Made by a program: the position numbers and the translations under genes | NCBI GenBank assembly: GCA_017937765.1 | Contig: JAGBCY010000002.1 | Coordinates: 1-32,149 of the forward strand | Direction: 5' to 3' | Origin: Alistipes sp. | Lineage (GTDB): Bacteria; Bacteroidota; Bacteroidia; Bacteroidales; Rikenellaceae | DNA: 32,149 nt | Notes under the pieces: generated by a model | The model's input: only the letters and a program-made list of their open reading frames with translations | Told to the model about the DNA's origin: nothing | Databases searched by the model: none | Shown here: positions 13,781-29,920 of the stretch, one piece after another | Layout: every line of letters begins with the position of its first letter | Numbering within the stretch: the first letter of the stretch is position 1

Positions 13781-16700
13781 ATGAAAGCAAGATTTTTAGC
13801 TTTGGCGGCATTGGTGCTTGGTTTAGCATCGTGCCAGAACGACTTCGACGCTGCCAACGTTGGCGCAGGCGGTGAGGTCGACTTCCAGCTTTCTGTCAAC
13901 GCTCCCGAGCTCGCAACACGTGCAGGCTTGGATGGCGTAACTCCCGACGGACAGGCTGATTTGAATAGTGCCTATGGTGCTATCGACTATTTCCAGGGTG
14001 GAACTGCCGGAGATAATCTCCGCAGGGACTGGAGCGACGTTAACCTCCGTTACACCTTGGAGGTTTACGATGTTGATGAGAATGGCAACCTTGTTGGCGA
14101 GGCTGCCTACGCTCCCGTAAAGGATCGTCAGGTTATCATCGTTGACGAGTACCAGCCCGTAACGTTCGAGCTCCGTCTCGTTCCTAAGCGTCACTACCGT
14201 TTCGTAGTATTCGCCGACTTCGTGCCTCAGGATGTTACTAACACATCACAGAGTACGGCAATCGCTTTGCAGCAGAACCTCGGTATTAGCCATACGATTG
14301 GTAACACGTTGGCCGACATCAAGGTTAAGAACGATGGTATCAACGACGAGCGCACGGATGCTTACTTCGGTTACGAGAACTTCACAATCACCAACTCGGC
14401 ATCGAACGATATCGTTTTGAAGCGTCCTTATGGTAAGCTCCGCGTTATCGCTACCGACCTCCACGAGCTTAACCTCAACGTTAACCCCAAGAAGGTAAAG
14501 GTTGAGTACACCGCTACTCACCTCACAAACTTCAACGCTGTAACTGGTGCTGCTACGTTTGACACTGAGAACACCGAGGTAGAGTTTGACTCTACATACA
14601 ACGACGTGTACAAGGAGGCAGACGAGGGCGGCCTTGCTAACCACTTCTACACAACTGGTTACGATGCTCTCAACGGTGCTAATCACGAGCAGTACACTAA
14701 CGCAAACGGTGCAGTACGTCATACTCATATGACGCTCTTCACGGACTACATCCTTGCAAACAACGAGGTTAGCCCCGTACACTTCACAATGACCGTTTAC
14801 GATCGCGAGAACAAGGAGATCAAGTCTACAACGTTCAACACCGATATCCCCGTACAGCGTAACTACTTGACAACCGTTATCGGTAACGTCCTCACTACTG
14901 CTACCGAGGTTGAGGTACGCATCGACGATAACTTCTCAAATGGTACAGAGTGGAATCCTGAGGAGGACGACTTTGATATCGAGTTGGTTGAGGTTGACTC
15001 TGCTAAGACACTCCAGGAGGCTCTCGACAACTACGTTAATGGCCAGACTATCTTCTTTGTTGACGATATCGAGGGTAATGTAACTGTTGACCAGATTGAG
15101 GGTAAGGATTATGTTATCGACGGTAACGGTTTCAACTACGATGGTACTATCTACATTGATGGTAATGCACGTAGCACTGGTGCTGAGACTCTTACTATCC
15201 GCAATATCAACTTCGCTACTGATAAGGATAATATCAACTTCATCGAGCAGAATAGCACAGATAGTGCTGTTCGTTACCCACACAACGTAACTGTTGAGAA
15301 CTGTTCATTCCGAGCTACTGGCGTAGATGTTGCTGCTCTCAAGATTCGTCAGGGTTACAACATCACGGTTAAGGATTGCGTTGCTGACGGCGTAACACGT
15401 GCAAACACTTCTGGTATGCACTCTTTGGGTCAGTTCTACGGCTGTACTGGCATCACTATCGATGGTGTTAATTTCAACGCAGGCCGTGGTGTATCGTTCG
15501 GCACTTCACTCAACGTTGTTGTTAAGAACTCTACATTCGTAGCTGAGTCTTACGGTTTGCGTGCTGATGCATCAGTAGCTACTACTCTTACTCTCGAGAA
15601 TGTAAACATCTCAGCTAACCTCCCCGTTGTTGCTCGCAAGTGCACGGCTGATTACACAATCAACATCTCTGGTGACAACACATTCGACGCTCCTGGCTAC
15701 CAGATTGTATTCACTAAGGGCGACGATGCAACTCCATTCGAAACTCCTACCAGCAACTGGAAACTTAATGGCGGCGTTGGTCTCCGCGTATTCCCCGGTA
15801 ACACTGCTTTGTACGCATACGATGCAGAGAACCTCCAGTATCTTCTCGACAACGCTACTGGCAATACCGAGATTCACCTCGCAGCTGATATCGTAGGTGA
15901 CGTTACTGCTACTCAGAAGTCAGGCGTTAAGGTTACTATCGAGGGTAACGGCCACAACTACGCTGGTGTTATCACCGTTGATGGCAAGAGCGCGACTTAC
16001 ACAACAGCTGGCTTGACTATCAAGGAGCTTAACTTCAATGCCGACAGCATCTCAGCAGATGCTTGTATTCGTTTGGGTAAGGACGACAATAGTCGCTATA
16101 CTTGCAACGTAACTGTTGATAGCTGTACATTCGACGTTCCCGGTGCCGTAGGTGTTAAGTCTTACACTGGTGGTGACAAGAATTTGAAGATTGCTAACTG
16201 TACTGCTACTGCAAATGCACACTCATTGGTTCAGGCTAAGGGTATCGACGGCATCCTTGTAGAGAAGTGTACTGTTAACTCTAAGAATGGTATGAACTTC
16301 AACAATAGTACGAACGTTACTGTTGACCAGTGTACTACAAACGTAAAGGGCTACGCCGTTCGCTACGGTGAGAGCTCAGGCGGTGCAGGTGCAGCTGAGG
16401 TGTACTACATCAATAATAGCACATTGAAGTCTGCTTGCGAGGATGGCGATGCAGTTATTGTTCTTCGTGGTACTGCCGACTATGCTACTTTGACAATCAC
16501 TAACACGACTCTCGATGGTGCTATCAAGATTACTAATAATGCTGTTGACGCTAAGGTTATCATCGACGGCAAGGAGCAGGTTGAGGCTGCGTCACAGAGC
16601 GAGTTGAATGACATTTTCGCTGCTGGCGGCGATGTTGCTGTAACCCTTGCTGATGGCAACTACGCGCTTCCATCAATTAGCAATGGTGATGTTGCTATCT

Positions 16701-17335
16701 CTGGTGGTAAGGATGTAGTTATTACTATTGGCAAGCCTAACTTGACAGGTTCAGACGTTACCTTTACGGGCGTGACAGTTAAGGGTAGCGGTTATGCAAC
16801 AGGTGTACAGCACGTGAATACTGTTACTTACAACGACGTTACTATCAATGGTGAGATGTGCTTGTATGGCGAAAAGAACGTATTTAACGAGTGTACCTTC
16901 AACTTGGCTGGTGGTCAGTATATCTGGACATACGGCTCGGACGTAACAGAGTTTAACAACTGTACTTTCAACACCGCCGGCAAGGCAATCTTGGTTTACA
17001 ACGAGGGTGATGGTGCTTGCGAGGTAAAGGTTGATGGCTGTGAGTTCAACGCAACAACAGCAGGTTTTGCTGGTGCTATTAAGAACCAGGCTTGTGCTGC
17101 TGTCGAGATAGACAACTTCCAGAGTCCAACTGAAACAAATAACGGTGCTGCTCACAATGTGACATATACAAACACCAATATATTTGATTCTAACTTCTCA
17201 GGTGGTTGGAGAATTAAGAACTATGAGGCTGGTAACCCTATTACCGTAAATGGTGTAGAGTACACTCAGATTGCTATTGATGGTAAGTTGATGACTATCG
17301 ACGCAGACAAGAACGTATCTGTTCTTTTGCATTAA
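13781..17335 (+). CDS. Large surface lipoprotein: fimbrillin-like N-terminus plus tandem beta-helix modules
   Basis: The 1184-residue protein has a lipoprotein signal ending in LGLASC (Cys18). Residues of about 30-400 are beta-rich and read like a fimbrillin/DUF6562-type domain (VDFQLSVNAPELATRAG, VTFELRLVPKRHYRFVVFADF, RPYGKLRVIATDL, then the fimbrillin-like stretch QRNYLTTVIGNVL). From about residue 408 come modules of right-handed parallel beta-helix type: KTLQEALDNYVNGQTIFFVD leads the first, a related block AENLQYLLDN starts near 682, and SQSELNDIFAAGG near 937. Each is followed by rungs with repeated NVTVENCSF / NVTVDSCTF / KVDGCEF motifs. The protein is probably surface exposed and could be an adhesive or glycan-binding fibre. 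Codon use in the second half is T-rich compared with neighbouring genes. It has its own long leader and terminator. Confidence 0.78.
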   Translation: MKARFLALAALVLGLASCQNDFDAANVGAGGEVDFQLSVNAPELATRAGLDGVTPDGQADLNSAYGAIDYFQGGTAGDNLRRDWSDVNLRYTLEVYDVDENGNLVGEAAYAPVKDRQVIIVDEYQPVTFELRLVPKRHYRFVVFADFVPQDVTNTSQSTAIALQQNLGISHTIGNTLADIKVKNDGINDERTDAYFGYENFTITNSASNDIVLKRPYGKLRVIATDLHELNLNVNPKKVKVEYTATHLTNFNAVTGAATFDTENTEVEFDSTYNDVYKEADEGGLANHFYTTGYDALNGANHEQYTNANGAVRHTHMTLFTDYILANNEVSPVHFTMTVYDRENKEIKSTTFNTDIPVQRNYLTTVIGNVLTTATEVEVRIDDNFSNGTEWNPEEDDFDIELVEVDSAKTLQEALDNYVNGQTIFFVDDIEGNVTVDQIEGKDYVIDGNGFNYDGTIYIDGNARSTGAETLTIRNINFATDKDNINFIEQNSTDSAVRYPHNVTVENCSFRATGVDVAALKIRQGYNITVKDCVADGVTRANTSGMHSLGQFYGCTGITIDGVNFNAGRGVSFGTSLNVVVKNSTFVAESYGLRADASVATTLTLENVNISANLPVVARKCTADYTINISGDNTFDAPGYQIVFTKGDDATPFETPTSNWKLNGGVGLRVFPGNTALYAYDAENLQYLLDNATGNTEIHLAADIVGDVTATQKSGVKVTIEGNGHNYAGVITVDGKSATYTTAGLTIKELNFNADSISADACIRLGKDDNSRYTCNVTVDSCTFDVPGAVGVKSYTGGDKNLKIANCTATANAHSLVQAKGIDGILVEKCTVNSKNGMNFNNSTNVTVDQCTTNVKGYAVRYGESSGGAGAAEVYYINNSTLKSACEDGDAVIVLRGTADYATLTITNTTLDGAIKITNNAVDAKVIIDGKEQVEAASQSELNDIFAAGGDVAVTLADGNYALPSISNGDVAISGGKDVVITIGKPNLTGSDVTFTGVTVKGSGYATGVQHVNTVTYNDVTINGEMCLYGEKNVFNECTFNLAGGQYIWTYGSDVTEFNNCTFNTAGKAILVYNEGDGACEVKVDGCEFNATTAGFAGAIKNQACAAVEIDNFQSPTETNNGAAHNVTYTNTNIFDSNFSGGWRIKNYEAGNPITVNGVEYTQIAIDGKLMTIDADKNVSVLLH

Positions 17336-20569: not shown

Positions 20570-21130
20570 TTAATAATCTGCACTATTTAGGTCAATAATA
20601 CGATAATCCAAAGATACACTAACCTCATGAACTATCCAACCATACTGATCATATTGATACACATACTTATAATCTAAAGTTATTCTTTGATCTCCAATTT
20701 GCCACATTGCTGTACTATCAGAATACGCTACGGGTTCACCATATTTTAATACCAGATTTTGCGACATTGTTAAAAATGCATTTTTACATTTAGCGGCCTT
20801 TCTCTTAAACTCAGCTTCCCAAGGCATACCTGGAGTTCCAGTACCACCAGGATCAGAAGCATAAAAGGATATCAGACGTAATTTATTTTCATCGTTAAAT
20901 ACAAAAGATACACTATCGAAATTTGCACCTCCAATTGATGGATTTGAAACTCTGTATATTTCTTCGCCGTACTTATTAGTAGTGTACTTTATTTTTTTGC
21001 CTTTCGATTCTAATTCATCTTCTACAACATATTTAGAATCTCCGAGAGATACTCCATACGCAGAAAGATTTTGCGCAACAACAAATATTGGCATTAATAA
21101 AACGATAAGCGCAGCTAATATTTTTTTCAT
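20570..21130 (-). CDS. Secreted protein of unknown function, AT-rich
   Basis: The protein has 186 residues from the ATG at 21130. A TTG at 21142 is possible but less likely. MKKILAALIVLLMPIFVVAQ is a clear signal peptide with no lipobox, so the protein is periplasmic or secreted. The mature part begins with YGVSLGDSKYVVEDEL, a pattern like small periplasmic domains that start by testing a 'GxSLG' turn. It continues with alternating beta and helix, including GGANFDSVSFVFNDENKL and NLVLKYGEPV. I do not recognise a family. The gene is visibly more AT-rich than its neighbours and lies between two copies of the same hairpin, suggesting recent gain. Confidence 0.72.
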   Translation of the reverse strand: MKKILAALIVLLMPIFVVAQNLSAYGVSLGDSKYVVEDELESKGKKIKYTTNKYGEEIYRVSNPSIGGANFDSVSFVFNDENKLRLISFYASDPGGTGTPGMPWEAEFKRKAAKCKNAFLTMSQNLVLKYGEPVAYSDSTAMWQIGDQRITLDYKYVYQYDQYGWIVHEVSVSLDYRIIDLNSADY

Positions 21131-21212
21131 TATATCATACAATTACAAAAACTTCTTACTCACTTAATGGCTTTTCAGTTACTCCACTTCCCAATATATT
21201 AGTTACACGCAC

Positions 21213-21388
21213 AAAAAAAGCGGGCGGGACATTTAGTCTACTCCATTCTCAAGGTGTTTGGCGTAACCCGATCTGCAGAATAACCAAAAGCCCGCACCGA
21301 AAGGCACGAGCATTTTTGCAAAATTCCTACAGATCCATTTAAGTCGCCAAACTTTTGAGAATACAGAATAGTGCTAAAACGCTTTTCC
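21213..21388 (-). ncRNA. Candidate rod-shaped structured RNA (6S RNA-like)
   Basis: Read on the minus strand, about 176 nt fold into one long interrupted rod. The stems, outermost first, are: 21380-21388 with 21214-21222; 21374-21378 with 21232-21236; 21366-21371 with 21238-21243; 21355-21362 with 21245-21252; 21345-21352 with 21256-21263; 21327-21335 plus 21323-21325 with 21270-21281; and an apical 9-bp hairpin 21303-21311 with 21290-21298 (loop UUUC). Several pairs are G-U on minus and would be A-C mismatches on plus, which fixes the strand. The 3' end is CGC followed by seven U. An internal loop of 9 and 6 nt splits the rod. A consensus promoter lies upstream at 21458-21488. The size, rod shape, central bubble and U-run resemble 6S RNA, but identity is not proven; a leader element of the downstream gene is the alternative. 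Confidence 0.55.
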
Positions 21389-21457
21389 AATATGTCTATA
21401 TGTGCGTATCAAACTATACGCTGTGTTTCATAGGCAAAAATTTATTAGTTACAAAAG

Positions 21458-21488
21458 CAAATATAGTAATAAAGATTAATATTACAAA
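21458..21488 (-). promoter_or_regulatory. Promoter of the structured RNA / secreted-protein transcript
   Basis: On minus, TTTG (21488-21485) and TATATTTG (21465-21458) are separated by 19 bp, a full consensus. The start would be near 21451, 63 nt before the rod. A closer, less perfect box (TATAGTTTG on minus, 21418-21410) could give a start near 21403. Confidence 0.72.
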
Positions 21489-21505
21489 ATTAGAGAACAA
21501 CTTAT

Positions 21506-21534
21506 AACTGCGACTTCATACTTAAGTCGCAGTT
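21506..21534. terminator. Terminator hairpin downstream of trmD (copy 2 of a duplicated hairpin)
   Basis: An 11-bp stem (21506-21516 with 21524-21534) lies 21 nt after the trmD stop. The 25-base core matches the hairpin at 20516-20548 except for one base. Confidence 0.8.
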
Positions 21535-21555
21535 AGTGTCTATTAACGCCATCAT

Positions 21556-22236
21556 CTACTTATCGCCGATAAGGTCCGGACGCAAGGCCTTTGTTCTGCT
21601 CCACGCCTGCTCGTCCTGCCACTTCTCTATCTCGGCAAAGTTGCCTGAGAGTAGCACATCGGGGACCTTCCAGCCATTGAACTCCGCAGGGCGCGTATAG
21701 ACGGGCGGTGCGAGAAGATTATCCTGAAAGCAGTCGGTCAGAGCCGAGGCCTCGTCGCCAATAGCTCCAGGGATGATACGCACCACCGAGTCGGCAATAA
21801 CGCACGCCGCAAGCTCTCCACCTGTAAGAACGTAGTCGCCGATGGATATCTCGCGCGTGATAAGGTGCTCGCGGATACGGTAGTCAATGCCCTTATAGTG
21901 GCCACAGAGGATGATGATGTTCTTCATCAGCGACAGGCGGTTTGCCTCGTGTTGGTTGTAGGTGATGCCATCGGGCGAGGTGAAGATAATCTCGTCGTAG
22001 TCGCGCTCCGACTTCAGCTTCTCGATACAGCGGAAGACGGGCTCGATCTTCATAACCATACCCGCCTCGCCACCAAACGGATAGTCATCGACCGTGCGAC
22101 GCTTGTCGTCGGTATAGTCGCGGAGGTTGTGAACATATATCTCAGCGTGGCCCGACTCCTGCGCGCGCTTCAAGATGGACTCGTTCAGGGGTGAGGCCAG
22201 AAGCTCAGGCACAACAGTAATAATATCTATGCGCAT
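21556..22236 (-). CDS. trmD: tRNA (guanine-N1)-methyltransferase TrmD
   Basis: The 226-residue SPOUT methyltransferase starts [17 protein letters not shown]. It carries [15 protein letters not shown] (around residues 53-67), the trefoil-knot SAM-binding segments [14 protein letters not shown] and [15 protein letters not shown], and the C-terminal [13 protein letters not shown]. TrmD makes m1G37 in tRNAs reading CNN/CCN and similar codons, which prevents frameshifting. Length is normal. It is the last gene of the exbB-to-trmD run, 15 bp after the MBL hydrolase, and is followed by the hairpin at 21506-21534. Confidence 0.96.
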
Positions 22237-25345: not shown

Positions 25346-28300
25346 TTACTCAACGCGCTCGGCCCTCCTTTTATTACGCCTCTCCTCTCGCATATCGGCC
25401 CTCATTTCGCGGTACTCCTTACGCGATATTAGACGTCCGAGCGTGTCGCGTCGCATAGAGCGGTTTCGGAAATTCGTACGTATATCCTTAAACCTATTGA
25501 AGCTCTCGCCGTAATAGAGTCCAATACCCGACTCCTGCATACCCTGATTCTCGCCATAGCGTTCGATCGTCTGGGTAAAGCCGCGCACACGCAACGTTCC
25601 ATCCGGCACAATCTGCCACGTCACAAAGGCCTCGCCCACGAAATTCGAATTACGCTCGGTGGTCTGCAACGCCTCATCCGACAGATAACCGCCTTCGACC
25701 TCCAACAGCAGACGGTCGTTCAACATACTCTTCGAGAAGCCGAAATCCACCTCGTCGCCCGTAAGCTCGGTACGCGGGCGATAGCGTAGGATAACGTTAT
25801 AATCATCGCCCGAGAGCCAGTTGCTCAGCTGGTTCGACAAGAGCTCGAAGCCCGTAGTTGCTGACAACGAGGCACCCATCGAGCTCGTATCCTCCGCTGC
25901 AAAGCTATTCACGGCAAGCAACCATATCATCTGCGCCGAGATAGCCTGTTGGTCGTTCAACGTCGATTGTATGATGGTCTGAATCTCGGGAGCGACATTC
26001 GGCACCTGAACATCGAAGGTAACAGTCGGTTGCATAAGCTCGTCGGTGAGCTTGATATAGCAATCCACCGACACCGCGCGCGACGTGTCGAAGCCCTGCA
26101 CCGAGCTACCCAACAGTGGCAACAGCGAGGTCTTTGTGCTATACACTGCGTTGATATCGAGCGTTGCGCCCAAAGGATCGCCAGTCCAATGTATCGACGA
26201 ACCGGGCTCCACGGTAAATAGCTTATTGATAATGTTTTGCAGCGTGAAGAGGTAGGTACCCTCGGTAATCTCCACGTCGCCACGCATCTCAAAGATATCT
26301 GCCTTAGGCACGATGTGCATCGTAAGCTGACCCATACCCTTACCCTTGATGACGTCGCCCACCGTGGGGTCGATGACCAGCTGCATCTCGATATTGGGCA
26401 ATACGTTAAGCGTCATATCTATATCCATCATACCACCCGATGTATTCATCTGGCGGTTCTTGCGCTCGTAAAACATCATTCTTCGCGTAAGGAACGTCGA
26501 GTCACGCTCCTCGGCCACAGGCGTCTCGAACTTCACAAAGTCGGCATACGAGACATCCTCCTTACCCAGCAGCGGCATATAGAACTTCGAGTTATCGGCA
26601 CTCGTACCCTCGATATCCATCTTAATTCCGCGTTTATCGCCACGGAACGATGCTGCACCCGTAGCATAGACGTGGCCATAGAAGAGGTCGTTATCCTTCG
26701 ACTTAGTATCCAGCACAAGCATCTCGGTAGCCTCGACATTGATGTCGTAGGTTATGTTCGAGAGGTGGTCGAGGCTGATATCCATCGAGTAGTAACCCAC
26801 GTTACCCTCGGGATCATAGACAGGCACACGCGAAGCACGGATATGGTTATCCTCGATATCCAGACGCGCAAAGGGTGCCGTATATCTCACCTTCGTATAA
26901 TCCACCGTGGCACCAATCGAGTCCACCGTGGCACCACCCCTAAGCGTTGCCTGACGACCCTCACCACGAACCTCGGCATAGATGTTTGCACTACCCTCGA
27001 CATCCGAGATGATGCCCTTGAGGAAGGGCGAGATTAGATCCACATCTACCCTACGCATACGCGCCTGCGCCCAATAGCGGTTGCCCTGCGGCTGGTAGTA
27101 ACCGCGGATTACGGTATCCTGTGACCTGCGATCGCGGATGATAACACGCGCACGGTTGGCCTCGAAATCCCAATTCGACATAAGCTCCTGTGGAGGAGCC
27201 ACGATGCCGTTAACGTCGAGACTATCGAGGTCGATATGTGCCTCGATCTCGGGATTCTTAAGTGCCGACTTAACCGTGGCATAACCATTCGACACGCCTC
27301 CCACGTTATAGCCCCAGCGTTTGATAATCTCCGAGAGTGGCGATATATCGAAGTTTCTGAGCGTAAGACGTATCGAGTCGCTGCGCTCACGCGAGGCAAC
27401 ACCGTCGATAACCAATTGTTGATCGGGGCGGGCGATGCGCAGATCACGGATCGAGATATGGGTCGAGTCGATATCAATACCGCGTGAGTAGAGCTTCCAC
27501 TGCTGCGTGGCATTTGTGAAGTGCGACGGCGTGATGTCGATGTGGATAGCGCGGCGGTTGGTCTCGGGGTTGCGGCTGAACTGCGCACTGAGGCCCAGCA
27601 TCGCCGAGCTATTATTCGCGACACCCGCCTGCTTGAATCCCGCCTTGAGGCTTATTCGGTTCTCGCGAGCACCGCCCACGATGCTGAAGTTCGGAATTAG
27701 CTGGCGTGCTCCGACGTACAGGCCCGATGACTTGACGTGCATCGAGAGCGAATCGAGGCTATTGTTGTTGACATTCCACTCAGCCTGATCGAGGATCACG
27801 CCCGAGTACTCCAAACCCTCCGACGTGCCGCTAAGCGTGAGGTTGTTGCTCTTGGGGTTGAACGTCAGACGCATCTCGGTATCCGAGGCCATAAGCAAAC
27901 CACCAGCCACAGCGTCGAGCAGATCGTTTATCGACTCCCCCGCCTGGAACGTCACGGCCGTATAGTCGCTCGGATTAAGTGTCGAACTCTGGCCAACGAC
28001 ACGGCTCGAATCGTTATCATAGAGTAACGGCACGTAGGTCTTGAGCGAGTTATAGATATAGTCGTAGACCTCGCGGTAGCTCGAGTGGCTATAATAGTCG
28101 AGCTCGAAATACTCCGACTTCAGACGCAGGAACTTCTGTCGACGGCTACCCTCGATGCCTATATCCATACGGCCGAGGCTGAGCTCACCACCCGGGTACT
28201 CATACTCTCCACCTGCCAAGCTGACGGCACCATCCATCTCGTCGAGGCTGCGTCCAGCGAGCTCGGCACCGACACTCACCGACAGGCACGACACCGAATC

Positions 28301-29920
28301 GCGGCGATTAATACCTAAAGCGTGCAGATCGGCACGCTCCAACGAGAGGGCCACCTCGTAAGTCGGCAGTTCACTATCCATATCTATGTTTGCAAAGAGT
28401 CCGAACTCGAGGTTGGGGTCCGCGGCGTTAACCTCGGCGTAGTACCGACCGCCATCAATACGACCCTGACCAGCGATGTTTCTATATACGTAATCCTTGA
28501 GGCCGATGCCGTCGACCATAACATCCACGTCGCCGATGATGCCGCCCGACTCCTTATCACCGAGCGTACCTGCGGCAACGACCCTCGAGTCGAGCTGGCG
28601 AAGCGACCTAATGCCCAACAATCTGCCGAGGTGGAGGCCCGCCGTACTCACCGTGCCATTGGTATCGTAACGACCATCTTTCAGCTTACGCATCGTGACA
28701 TCACCCGAGATATCACCCACACCGCTCTTTACGTTACCAACGACGCGGAACGAGCTAAAACGTCCGCCAAACGTAGCACGCATATCGACCCACTCCGCAC
28801 TACGGATGATCTCCATAACCCTATCCGGTAGCGGCTCCTTGAGGATATTATCCACGAGCACGGTGATATCGTCCGACGTGGCGTACAACTCCTCGATGCC
28901 AAAGGCGTAGTTCGACGTGCGCCAATCAGGCAGACCCGTGATGTGGTATTTACCACGTACACGGCTGCCGTCGCCGATAGATGCACTGCTAAGCACACCT
29001 TCGAAGTCGCGTACAACACCCACGAACGTAGCCTCTATATCGCGCACCGTAGTATTCCAATCCTTAAGTCCCGGGGCGAAGTAGCCGAGATCCTCGGTCG
29101 AAATCGTCGTCGCGGTGACGTTTCCAATCATATCAACCTCGTCGATATAATATTTATACTCGTTCCAGTCCTCGCCATCAAGGACCACCGACGGAGCATA
29201 GAGCGACGACGTAGCAGTCTGTGCCCTAAACTCATCGAAGCGTATCACGCCACGGTTGACGTACAATCCGCTCGAGATGTTGTCGATAACAAAGCCGCTA
29301 CGCTCTCTACCCGAGAGGCTCGCAACCTCGCATTCCACACACCCCTTCACAACCGAGAAGTCACGGACCGTAGCCTTGATATCGGTTACCTGCATATCGT
29401 AGTAGTCAATGCCGTACTCGGGGTTACGGTGTACGAGACGCTCGAAACGGAACTCCGCGTCGCGGGCCTCGATATCGTCGATAAAGAGTCGGAAGTTACT
29501 TTGGCCGTTGGGATTTTGCAGATTGCGAACAATGGGACGTATGTTTATCTCGCCGTTGGCAAGCTCCTGAAGATAGAGCTTAGCACCCTCGACCTCGGCC
29601 GTGGAGATACACAGTCCATCTTGCACGATGTTAAGGCTCGAGATAGATGCCGTGGCGCGCTTGACGTAGATCATCGTATCCTGCTCGTAGTCCTCGACGT
29701 AGAAGCCCTCGACACGCACCCTCGAGAAGAGATCGAGGTCGATGCGGTCAATTTCGACACGCGTGCCCAAAAACTCCGAGGCATACTCCGAGGCGTGCTT
29801 GATAATCACGTTCTGCACCGCCTCAATATTTAGCACAAGGGTTATGGTCACAGGTAAAAATATCAACAACAAAATGATTGTCGATATTACCTTTGCCAAT
29901 ATTTTTATACCTTTGCGCAT
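25346..29920 (-). CDS. tamB: TamB/AsmA-like inner-membrane protein (translocation and assembly module)
   Basis: The 1524-residue protein has an uncleaved N-terminal membrane anchor (about 8-30, VISTIILLLIFLPVTITLVL). Over 1000 residues of repetitive beta-strand sequence follow, expected to form a long periplasm-spanning hydrophobic groove. The C-terminal DUF490/TamB domain is at about 1050-1460, with the hallmark EITEGTYLFTL...FTVEPGSSIHW...GDPLGATLDINAVY near 1223-1260. The tail is strongly basic (about the last 40 residues). TamB-type bridge proteins move phospholipid between membranes and help insert outer-membrane proteins. No tamA is seen beside it. It sits upstream of the ExbB/ExbD/TonB genes and has its own -7 box. 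Confidence 0.92.
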   Translation of the reverse strand: MRKGIKILAKVISTIILLLIFLPVTITLVLNIEAVQNVIIKHASEYASEFLGTRVEIDRIDLDLFSRVRVEGFYVEDYEQDTMIYVKRATASISSLNIVQDGLCISTAEVEGAKLYLQELANGEINIRPIVRNLQNPNGQSNFRLFIDDIEARDAEFRFERLVHRNPEYGIDYYDMQVTDIKATVRDFSVVKGCVECEVASLSGRERSGFVIDNISSGLYVNRGVIRFDEFRAQTATSSLYAPSVVLDGEDWNEYKYYIDEVDMIGNVTATTISTEDLGYFAPGLKDWNTTVRDIEATFVGVVRDFEGVLSSASIGDGSRVRGKYHITGLPDWRTSNYAFGIEELYATSDDITVLVDNILKEPLPDRVMEIIRSAEWVDMRATFGGRFSSFRVVGNVKSGVGDISGDVTMRKLKDGRYDTNGTVSTAGLHLGRLLGIRSLRQLDSRVVAAGTLGDKESGGIIGDVDVMVDGIGLKDYVYRNIAGQGRIDGGRYYAEVNAADPNLEFGLFANIDMDSELPTYEVALSLERADLHALGINRRDSVSCLSVSVGAELAGRSLDEMDGAVSLAGGEYEYPGGELSLGRMDIGIEGSRRQKFLRLKSEYFELDYYSHSSYREVYDYIYNSLKTYVPLLYDNDSSRVVGQSSTLNPSDYTAVTFQAGESINDLLDAVAGGLLMASDTEMRLTFNPKSNNLTLSGTSEGLEYSGVILDQAEWNVNNNSLDSLSMHVKSSGLYVGARQLIPNFSIVGGARENRISLKAGFKQAGVANNSSAMLGLSAQFSRNPETNRRAIHIDITPSHFTNATQQWKLYSRGIDIDSTHISIRDLRIARPDQQLVIDGVASRERSDSIRLTLRNFDISPLSEIIKRWGYNVGGVSNGYATVKSALKNPEIEAHIDLDSLDVNGIVAPPQELMSNWDFEANRARVIIRDRRSQDTVIRGYYQPQGNRYWAQARMRRVDVDLISPFLKGIISDVEGSANIYAEVRGEGRQATLRGGATVDSIGATVDYTKVRYTAPFARLDIEDNHIRASRVPVYDPEGNVGYYSMDISLDHLSNITYDINVEATEMLVLDTKSKDNDLFYGHVYATGAASFRGDKRGIKMDIEGTSADNSKFYMPLLGKEDVSYADFVKFETPVAEERDSTFLTRRMMFYERKNRQMNTSGGMMDIDMTLNVLPNIEMQLVIDPTVGDVIKGKGMGQLTMHIVPKADIFEMRGDVEITEGTYLFTLQNIINKLFTVEPGSSIHWTGDPLGATLDINAVYSTKTSLLPLLGSSVQGFDTSRAVSVDCYIKLTDELMQPTVTFDVQVPNVAPEIQTIIQSTLNDQQAISAQMIWLLAVNSFAAEDTSSMGASLSATTGFELLSNQLSNWLSGDDYNVILRYRPRTELTGDEVDFGFSKSMLNDRLLLEVEGGYLSDEALQTTERNSNFVGEAFVTWQIVPDGTLRVRGFTQTIERYGENQGMQESGIGLYYGESFNRFKDIRTNFRNRSMRRDTLGRLISRKEYREMRADMREERRNKRRAERVE

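Follow-up and report, generated by a model that had tools for sequence, protein, structure and literature searches.

Among the described RNAs that stand closest to the one reported here are 6S RNA, of which a genome carries one or two stand-alone genes, the tetQ leader, whose leader peptide is very short, and the DUF805 motifs, reportedly described by Weinberg and colleagues in 2017. For the Bacteroidota, B. thetaiotaomicron is described as having a validated 6S RNA of its own (PMC7366714), the tetQ leader of Bacteroides as a translational attenuator (PMC5418344), FopS and GibS as multicopy Bacteroides sRNAs with canonical sigma-ABfr promoters (PMC11697453), and Flavo-1 as a structured Bacteroidota motif of unknown function that lies in several 5' regions (PMC9723704). 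A parallel in architecture comes from the shunt leaders of the pararetroviruses CaMV and RTBV and of RTSV, which are described as carrying a short uORF before a large stem, with the uORF ending 7-8 nt before that stem in two described cases (PMC5902531).

The element described here lies on the minus strand of a 32,149-nt stretch of Alistipes sp. DNA (the window, meaning the whole stretch that was analysed). It resembles 6S RNA (RF00013) and 6S-Flavo (RF01685) in its rod shape and rough size, but neither model matched its region at E <= 10, and it occurs many times per genome, is linked to a gene and has, by eye, no two-sided central bubble in the window copy. Like FopS and GibS (GibS, RF04182) it belongs to a multicopy Bacteroidales RNA family, whereas those two are trans-acting sRNAs. 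The tetQ leader, compared by description only, is likewise a Bacteroides leader with translational attenuation but serves an antibiotic-resistance gene. DUF805 and DUF805b (RF03081 and RF02914; clan CL00115) are cis-regulatory motifs that lie in the same leaders ahead of the start codon, but they are separate elements of 35-68 nt that also occur without the rod and cover no part of it. The CaMV and RTBV leaders share with it a 5'-proximal short uORF, then a large stem-loop with the main ORF beyond, although they belong to eukaryotic viruses and the likeness is one of architecture, not homology.

Comparison of the relatives of this element indicates that the rod is most likely the front part of an mRNA and one copy of a widespread structured leader. 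We put the probability at about 0.55 that it forms the central part of a 5' leader that acts in cis on the mRNA of the exported protein at 21130, sensing translation by way of a micro-ORF. The class is apparently undescribed, as no Rfam 15 match lay over the rod in the window or in 80 loci and a literature search, made outside the 2017 motif collection and the 2022 Bacteroides RNA comparison, gave none.

Structure and setting of the rod in the window

The original prediction was of a rod-shaped RNA of nested stems on the minus strand, ending in CGC and seven U, with a promoter upstream at 21458-21488, and in these respects it was borne out. The minus-strand fold of 21205-21395 has a predicted energy of -69.2 kcal/mol compared with -46.7 ± 4.0 in 200 dinucleotide shuffles (z -5.69; 0/200 as low), the stems were found where they had been placed, the rod ends in CGCTTTTTTT (21213-21222), and TTTTG and TATATTTG are present upstream. 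We take this upstream box, by its consensus, to be of the Bacteroides type; a plain sigma-70 scan gave 2 promoter-like sites compared with 2.0 in shuffles. The conserved matching unit is longer than the rod first proposed (237 nt, 21204-21440, minus), and four parts of it had been missed, namely a 5' hairpin (P0), a micro-ORF, a base helix (P1) that draws on bases 3' of the U-run, and a pairing beyond the U-run. The features, in the 5' to 3' direction of the minus strand, are:

21458..21489, minus: Bacteroides-type promoter located in the window, TTTTG at 21485-21489 and TATATTTG at 21458-21465
21414..21431, minus: micro-ORF ATG AAA CAC AGC GTA TAG (MKHSV-stop), at a GCCTATG-type box
21404..21421, minus: P0 hairpin, GCGTAT (21416-21421) with ATACGC (21404-21409), overlapping the end of the micro-ORF
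21401..21409, minus: switch strand ATACGCACA, with two possible partners, the 5' arm of P0 and the rod's 3' base (giving P1)
21380..21388, minus: 5' strand of P2, partner 21213-21222 (CGC and U-run)
21354..21379, minus: 5' side of P3, partner 21232-21252
21345..21352, minus: 5' strand of P4, GTTTGGCG, partner 21256-21263
21323..21335, minus: 5' side of P5, partner 21270-21281
21290..21311, minus: P6 apical hairpin, GCTCGTGCC-TTTC-GGTGCGGGC, alignment helix 11
21226..21229, minus: 5' strand of the pseudoknot, UCCC (within GTCCC), placed by the family-wide GTNCC/GGNAC covariation
21205..21213, minus: 3' strand of P1, TGTGCGTGT, overlapping the final base of the U-run
21189..21192, minus: 3' strand of the pseudoknot, GGGA, downstream of the U-run
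21153..21187, minus: DUF805b-like element (RF02914), 20.3 bits (gathering score 35.6), E 0.0024
20570..21130, minus: downstream gene, 186 aa, with a signal-peptide-like start and no Pfam or NCBIfam family at E <= 0.01

The rod sits between trmD (21556-22236, minus) and the 186-aa gene that starts at 21130 on the same strand. By eye, its largest gaps are all one-sided, the 5' side having one of 12 nt close to the base and the 3' side one of 9 nt. In the window the P6 apical hairpin is terminator-like by pattern; it was set aside as a terminator, since the T-run behind it is lost in several relatives. Elsewhere in the window, a 12-pair inverted repeat at 21505-21535, between trmD and the leader promoter, is possibly the end of the trmD transcript, and two large ORFs (13781-17335, 1184 aa, and 25346-29920, 1524 aa) gave no NCBIfam match at E <= 1e-10.

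Covariation and pairing past the U-run

Before alignment, six loci that were exact duplicates were removed along with four cut or repeated copies (L017, L022, L025 and L036), and 66 of 76 copies entered the alignment used here (A1), the other ten being more than 90% identical to others. RNAalifold gave a consensus of only 33 pairs. The structure evaluated has 72 pairs and was obtained by projecting the fold of one copy (L047) onto A1 and retaining the pairs that most rows can form. Over the 66 copies, 91.7% of its cells are paired, compared with 34.6-55.5% when the same structure is slid by 1-3 columns; as projection and filtering used the same alignment, the paired percentage is raised and the weight rests on the double changes. 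A test of compensatory changes in aligned homologues had been proposed with the original prediction, and it gave changes on both sides at 44 of the 72 pairs (371 cells, counted as non-independent events because the copies are related). None of 500 shuffles reached the observed value on any of five covariation measures. The alignment also holds 731 G-U cells compared with 86 A-C cells, and the selected molecule is therefore the minus-strand RNA, so that an argument first made from G-U pairs in the window holds across its homologues. These comparisons support a structured minus-strand RNA with its own promoter, under selection.

The helices of A1 differ in what they contribute. P1 (helix 1) is paired in 95.2% of cells, with double changes at 5/9 pairs, P4 (helix 5) in 97.1% (8/11 pairs) and P6 (helix 11) in 95.3% (7/13 pairs). 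Within P3, helix 4 is paired in 89.5% of cells with double changes at 13/14 pairs, and helix 3 in only 79.1%. P5 (helices 6-10) reaches 68-89% in a part where the alignment is poor. P2 (helix 2), which contains the U-run, is paired in 97.1% of cells and has 0 pairs with a double change; the alignment is compatible with it, and covariation gives no proof.

A GTNCC segment lies just 5' of the CGC and U-run, and GGNAC follows shortly 3' of the U-run (21 nt in the window). By pattern, GTNCC is present in 98/144 copies, and GGNAC occurs in the following stretch in 73 of these 98 and is absent in 25. The variable position pairs as A-T in 33, T-A in 22, G-C in 8 and C-G in 6 of the 73 copies, that is, 69 Watson-Crick pairs, with two wobbles and two mismatches. 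In a test that used no motif, the mean longest complementarity across the U-run was 5.36 compared with 4.58 ± 0.08 in 300 permutations (maximum 4.83, n = 143), and 0/300 attained the observed mean. On this comparative evidence the GTNCC/GGNAC helix is a pseudoknot with the base of the rod, although in the window copy only four of its pairs are possible (UCCC/GGGA). It follows from the covariation that RNA 3' of the U-run belongs to the structure and that the U-run is not its functional end. The U-run was accordingly set aside as a terminator, since the sequence beyond it covaries with the rod, and conserved pairing reaches past the putative terminator, as expected of a cis-acting 5' leader.

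Cargo genes, micro-ORF and switch strand

ORFs around the copies were called with a purpose-made ORF caller. A downstream ORF was called for 142 of the 144 copies (of which at least L095, L097 and L099 are second fetches of L077, L031 and L008); it lies on the same strand in 136/142, and in 132 of these 136 within 150 nt, at a median distance of 71 nt. On the upstream side, the closest ORFs occur in both orientations (91 and 48). A signal-peptide-like start was found in 114/134 nearby downstream proteins compared with 184/519 other ORFs of the same loci, by a crude hydrophobicity rule under which the test proteins may take a better internal ATG and the controls need no positive charge. These cargo proteins have no common family: among 103 scanned, no Pfam family is commoner than the type IX sorting tail, found in 7 (103 of 114 were scanned, the 11 left out by hand being mostly proteins with no signal-peptide-like start or doubtful ORFs).

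Two observations concern the exchange of cargo. In one genome, proteins that are homologous by eye (L009 and L024) stand behind two different rod sequence types. In five MAGs, four labelled Paludibacteraceae and one Bacteroidales (L027, L062, L064, L068 and L073), the gene upstream of the rod, of 591 aa, is apparently the same throughout. The exported proteins downstream differ from one another except for similar starts, which looks like replacement of the cargo under a fixed leader.

The box TAnnTTTG lies within 70 nt upstream of the micro-ORF ATG in 88/133 copies (counted after removal of the same duplicate and cut or repeated loci), with 68 of 96 distances to the ATG falling at 21-33 nt, and between rod and gene in only 1/132 spacers. 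For comparison, the most frequent 5' UTR length of Bacteroides mRNAs is given as 23 nt (PMC7366714). Across the homologues a promoter thus lies upstream of the rod and a same-strand gene downstream of it, the arrangement of a cis-acting 5' leader.

At the 5' end of the element, at a GCCTATG-type box, is a micro-ORF of 1-6 codons. The 144 copies were classified as 108 with this box, 17 without and 19 unclassifiable. All 108 boxed copies (75 + 33) have an in-frame stop within 6 codons after the ATG, compared with 187/669 ATGs taken from non-coding sequence of these loci, whereas the codons and the position of the stop vary among copies, from M-stop to MKHSV-stop and similar. Counted by frame, a stop within 6 codons is present in 126 (own frame), 111 (+1) and 87 (+2) of 133 copies; the other frames were judged an unsuitable control, since ATGA gives a trivial +1 stop, and the non-coding ATGs were used instead. 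Where there is no stop ahead of the P0 loop, the first loop bases supply one in 37/37 copies, compared with 17/33 copies that have an earlier stop (Fisher p 4.7e-7, uncorrected for relatedness and with 5 copies lacking the hairpin pattern left out).

P0 forms at least 5/6 of its pairs in 63/66 copies of A1. Its 3' arm, ATACGC, has two mutually exclusive partners, GCGTAT at the end of the micro-ORF (P0) and a GCGTAT-like sequence past the U-run (P1). In an energy model of 88 copies, P0 had a median probability of 0.81 on the nascent RNA, and on the full-length RNA P0 had a mean of 0.25 and P1 of 0.65; with the micro-ORF blocked P1 rose to 0.86, which partly follows from the removal of P0. In the window copy the model favoured P1 with or without a ribosome. 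The automatic helix search proved unspecific, as it reported a 'P1' also in 16/17 unboxed copies, and P1 therefore rests on the covariation of A1 in the closer copies. By the same unspecific search, the gap between the micro-ORF stop and P1 has a median of 5 nt in 74 copies and of 9 nt in 33, and is negative in 6 and 8 copies, where the automatic P1 lies upstream.

The structure, the pairing past the U-run, the placement between promoter and exported gene, and the micro-ORF in boxed copies are thus supported by comparison of sequences; from them we infer that the choice between P0 and P1 depends on whether a ribosome occupies the micro-ORF, and that initiation at the downstream gene is tuned in this way. 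Ribosomes would begin at the micro-ORF, which is roughly as far from the transcription start as is usual. In its absence P0 would form first on the nascent RNA and hold the base of the rod open, whereas a ribosome initiating or terminating there would cover the 5' arm of P0, and the freed switch strand would then, along with the pseudoknot, close the base (P1) not far from where the gene proper begins. Expression of the envelope or secreted protein would then depend on ribosome loading at the micro-ORF, the closed rod being either the on or the off state. If this is correct, a large, strongly covarying leader matched in 96/101 sampled genomes of the genus and 134/393 of the order, among the matches listed, marks otherwise unrelated exported proteins and would point to post-transcriptional control that is common to the surface proteins of gut Bacteroidales. 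The leader would then also allow a test of whether a start-stop micro-ORF can serve as a ribosome sensor, or whether bacterial ribosomes can shunt.

That last possibility, argued by analogy with the viral leaders, is improbable in our estimation. The micro-ORF of 1-6 codons would be translated up to a stop that lies just short, by a few nt, of the base of the rod of about 200 nt, the ribosomes themselves would promote closure of the rod, and they would be handed across its base and the pseudoknot to the start codon of the exported protein. As in shunt leaders, the end of the short 5' uORF does lie a few nt ahead of a large stem-loop's base, by the unspecific helix search. Were it so, shunting would be a general Bacteroidales device for starting the translation of envelope proteins.

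Distribution of relatives and alternative readings

When the species genome collection was scanned by pattern, 63 stretches were found, of which 61 are labelled Bacteroidales or groups within, one Flavobacteriales and one Kurthia; the Kurthia stretch is absent from the profile matches. The profile matches mostly span nearly all 233 positions, the shorter ones being two copies cut by the end of a locus or contig (L036 and L017) and others that are slightly shorter. The second of these two (L017, G000:C33:31590-31764) is a second copy in the window's own genome, cut off by the contig end. BLAST with the window copy alone saw 15 of 61 relatives, a patchiness that is largely one of poor sensitivity, because a covariance model built from 66 copies matched, at E <= 1e-4 and among the matches listed, 96 of 101 sampled genomes of the window's genus, including 38/38 of good quality, with up to 20 matches in one genome. 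In the order it matched 134/393 genomes and 81/207 genera, and in the phylum, at E <= 1e-6, 38/395 genomes, most of them outside the order, again among the matches listed; the E-values are rough, the larger searches used stricter filters with few candidates scored per genome, and weak matches may be chance, given that the reverse strand of true copies alone scores about 30 bits. From the matches listed, 40 loci were picked by hand, nearly all full length and away from contig ends.

By eye, relatives outside the order (L163-L182, L183 3001-3220 and L185 7001-7213) keep the core, in the form GAA-stem, TGCTCAYG/CRTGGGC and GGTA-stem-TACC, in many of 20 fetched loci. Two of these copies, of the same class, lie about 220 nt before susC/susD operons and are probably from Flavobacteriales. 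Of 50 copies classified in the wider set, 17 lack the box, and inspection by eye of copies from outside the order showed none. The micro-ORF switch is therefore not essential to the rod core, which must have a function of its own; the main rival to translation sensing is a bound ligand or protein. On that account the leader would be a riboswitch or regulon tag that coordinates exported proteins, with the conserved core (the GAA/ACC loop, the GCUC/GGGC helix with its U-G wobble, and GGUA) bound by one signal and the micro-ORF only loading or spacing ribosomes. The wider conservation of the core than of the micro-ORF, in unboxed copies and in those outside the order, the susC/susD operons behind two of the latter, and the sequence conservation of the loops and the apical helix all speak for this reading; the absence of a shared family among the cargo proteins is unusual for a metabolite riboswitch, however, and the data suggest no ligand or binding protein. 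We regard it as possible but doubtful.

It is unlikely that the rod senses nothing and mainly protects or processes the mRNA, as a double-stranded barrier or an RNase III site. A long, stable, GC-topped helix near the 5' end would suit such a role, which would leave the micro-ORF, the two-way switch strand and the covarying pseudoknot unexplained.

The original prediction favoured a discrete small RNA, with 6S RNA as its candidate identity. The promoter, the U-run and the strong fold suit a trans-acting RNA that ends at the U-run, 6S-like or other, and a leader could also be released as a short RNA; nevertheless we consider a discrete RNA very unlikely, since pairing extends past the U-run, the rod has a regular place before a same-strand gene (136/142), the promoter boxes recur in only 1/132 spacers and there are many matches per genome. 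The 6S identity was rejected, as far as models can decide, for want of a match, for its many matches per genome (up to 20) and for its gene-linked, leader-like position. RF00013 matched neither the window nor, at E <= 10, the region, and it was without a match in the window's own genome (86% complete), in a search that found a match in 5/14 control genomes, and RF01685 had none in the own genome (the control genomes were also without a match) or in the region at E <= 10. Searches with Rfam 15 likewise gave no match overlapping the rod, whether in the window, where the gathering threshold was applied, or in 80 loci searched at E <= 0.05 or 0.1. At E <= 10 only Thr_leader touches the rod in the region, at chance level (15.1 of 55 bits, E 3.2), GibS reached only 17.2 bits (E 6.2), at 21421-21541 of the other strand, and Flavo-1 had no match at E <= 0.1 in 20 fetched loci of the phylum search. 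Thus, what stands of the earlier reading is a selected, structured minus-strand RNA with a promoter; the 6S identity and the discrete end at the U-run do not, and the comparison favours what that reading had named as counting against it, a continuous mRNA leader for the gene at 21130.

If the rod were a hairpin that spreads by insertion, either mobile (MITE-like) or recombining as single-strand DNA (attC-like), this would account for many copies in different places and families, but the reading ranks last and is hardly credible, because of the regular orientation to promoter and gene, the excess of G-U over A-C cells (731:86) and the strong covariation, and in addition the window copy matches no phage or plasmid record and a search of viral contigs with an exact pattern for one sequence type gave no match.

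Immediately 3' of the rod in the window is the DUF805b match listed above, which is below the gathering score; those in L002 and L094 pass it. In eight genomes searched at E <= 0.01, 9 of 19 DUF805b matches lie about 20 nt 3' of a rod and 10 elsewhere; the model also weakly matches 2/14 control genomes, so the weakest matches, that of the window included, could be chance. A DUF805b-like pattern is present in 37/132 spacers compared with 30/4254 random 80-nt stretches, and in 28 of the 37 it ends 21-30 nt before the start codon. DUF805b may form a further module of these leaders, or show where processing or landing takes place; it follows directly after the rod in the window (21153-21187) and in L002, L019, L094, L102 and L105.
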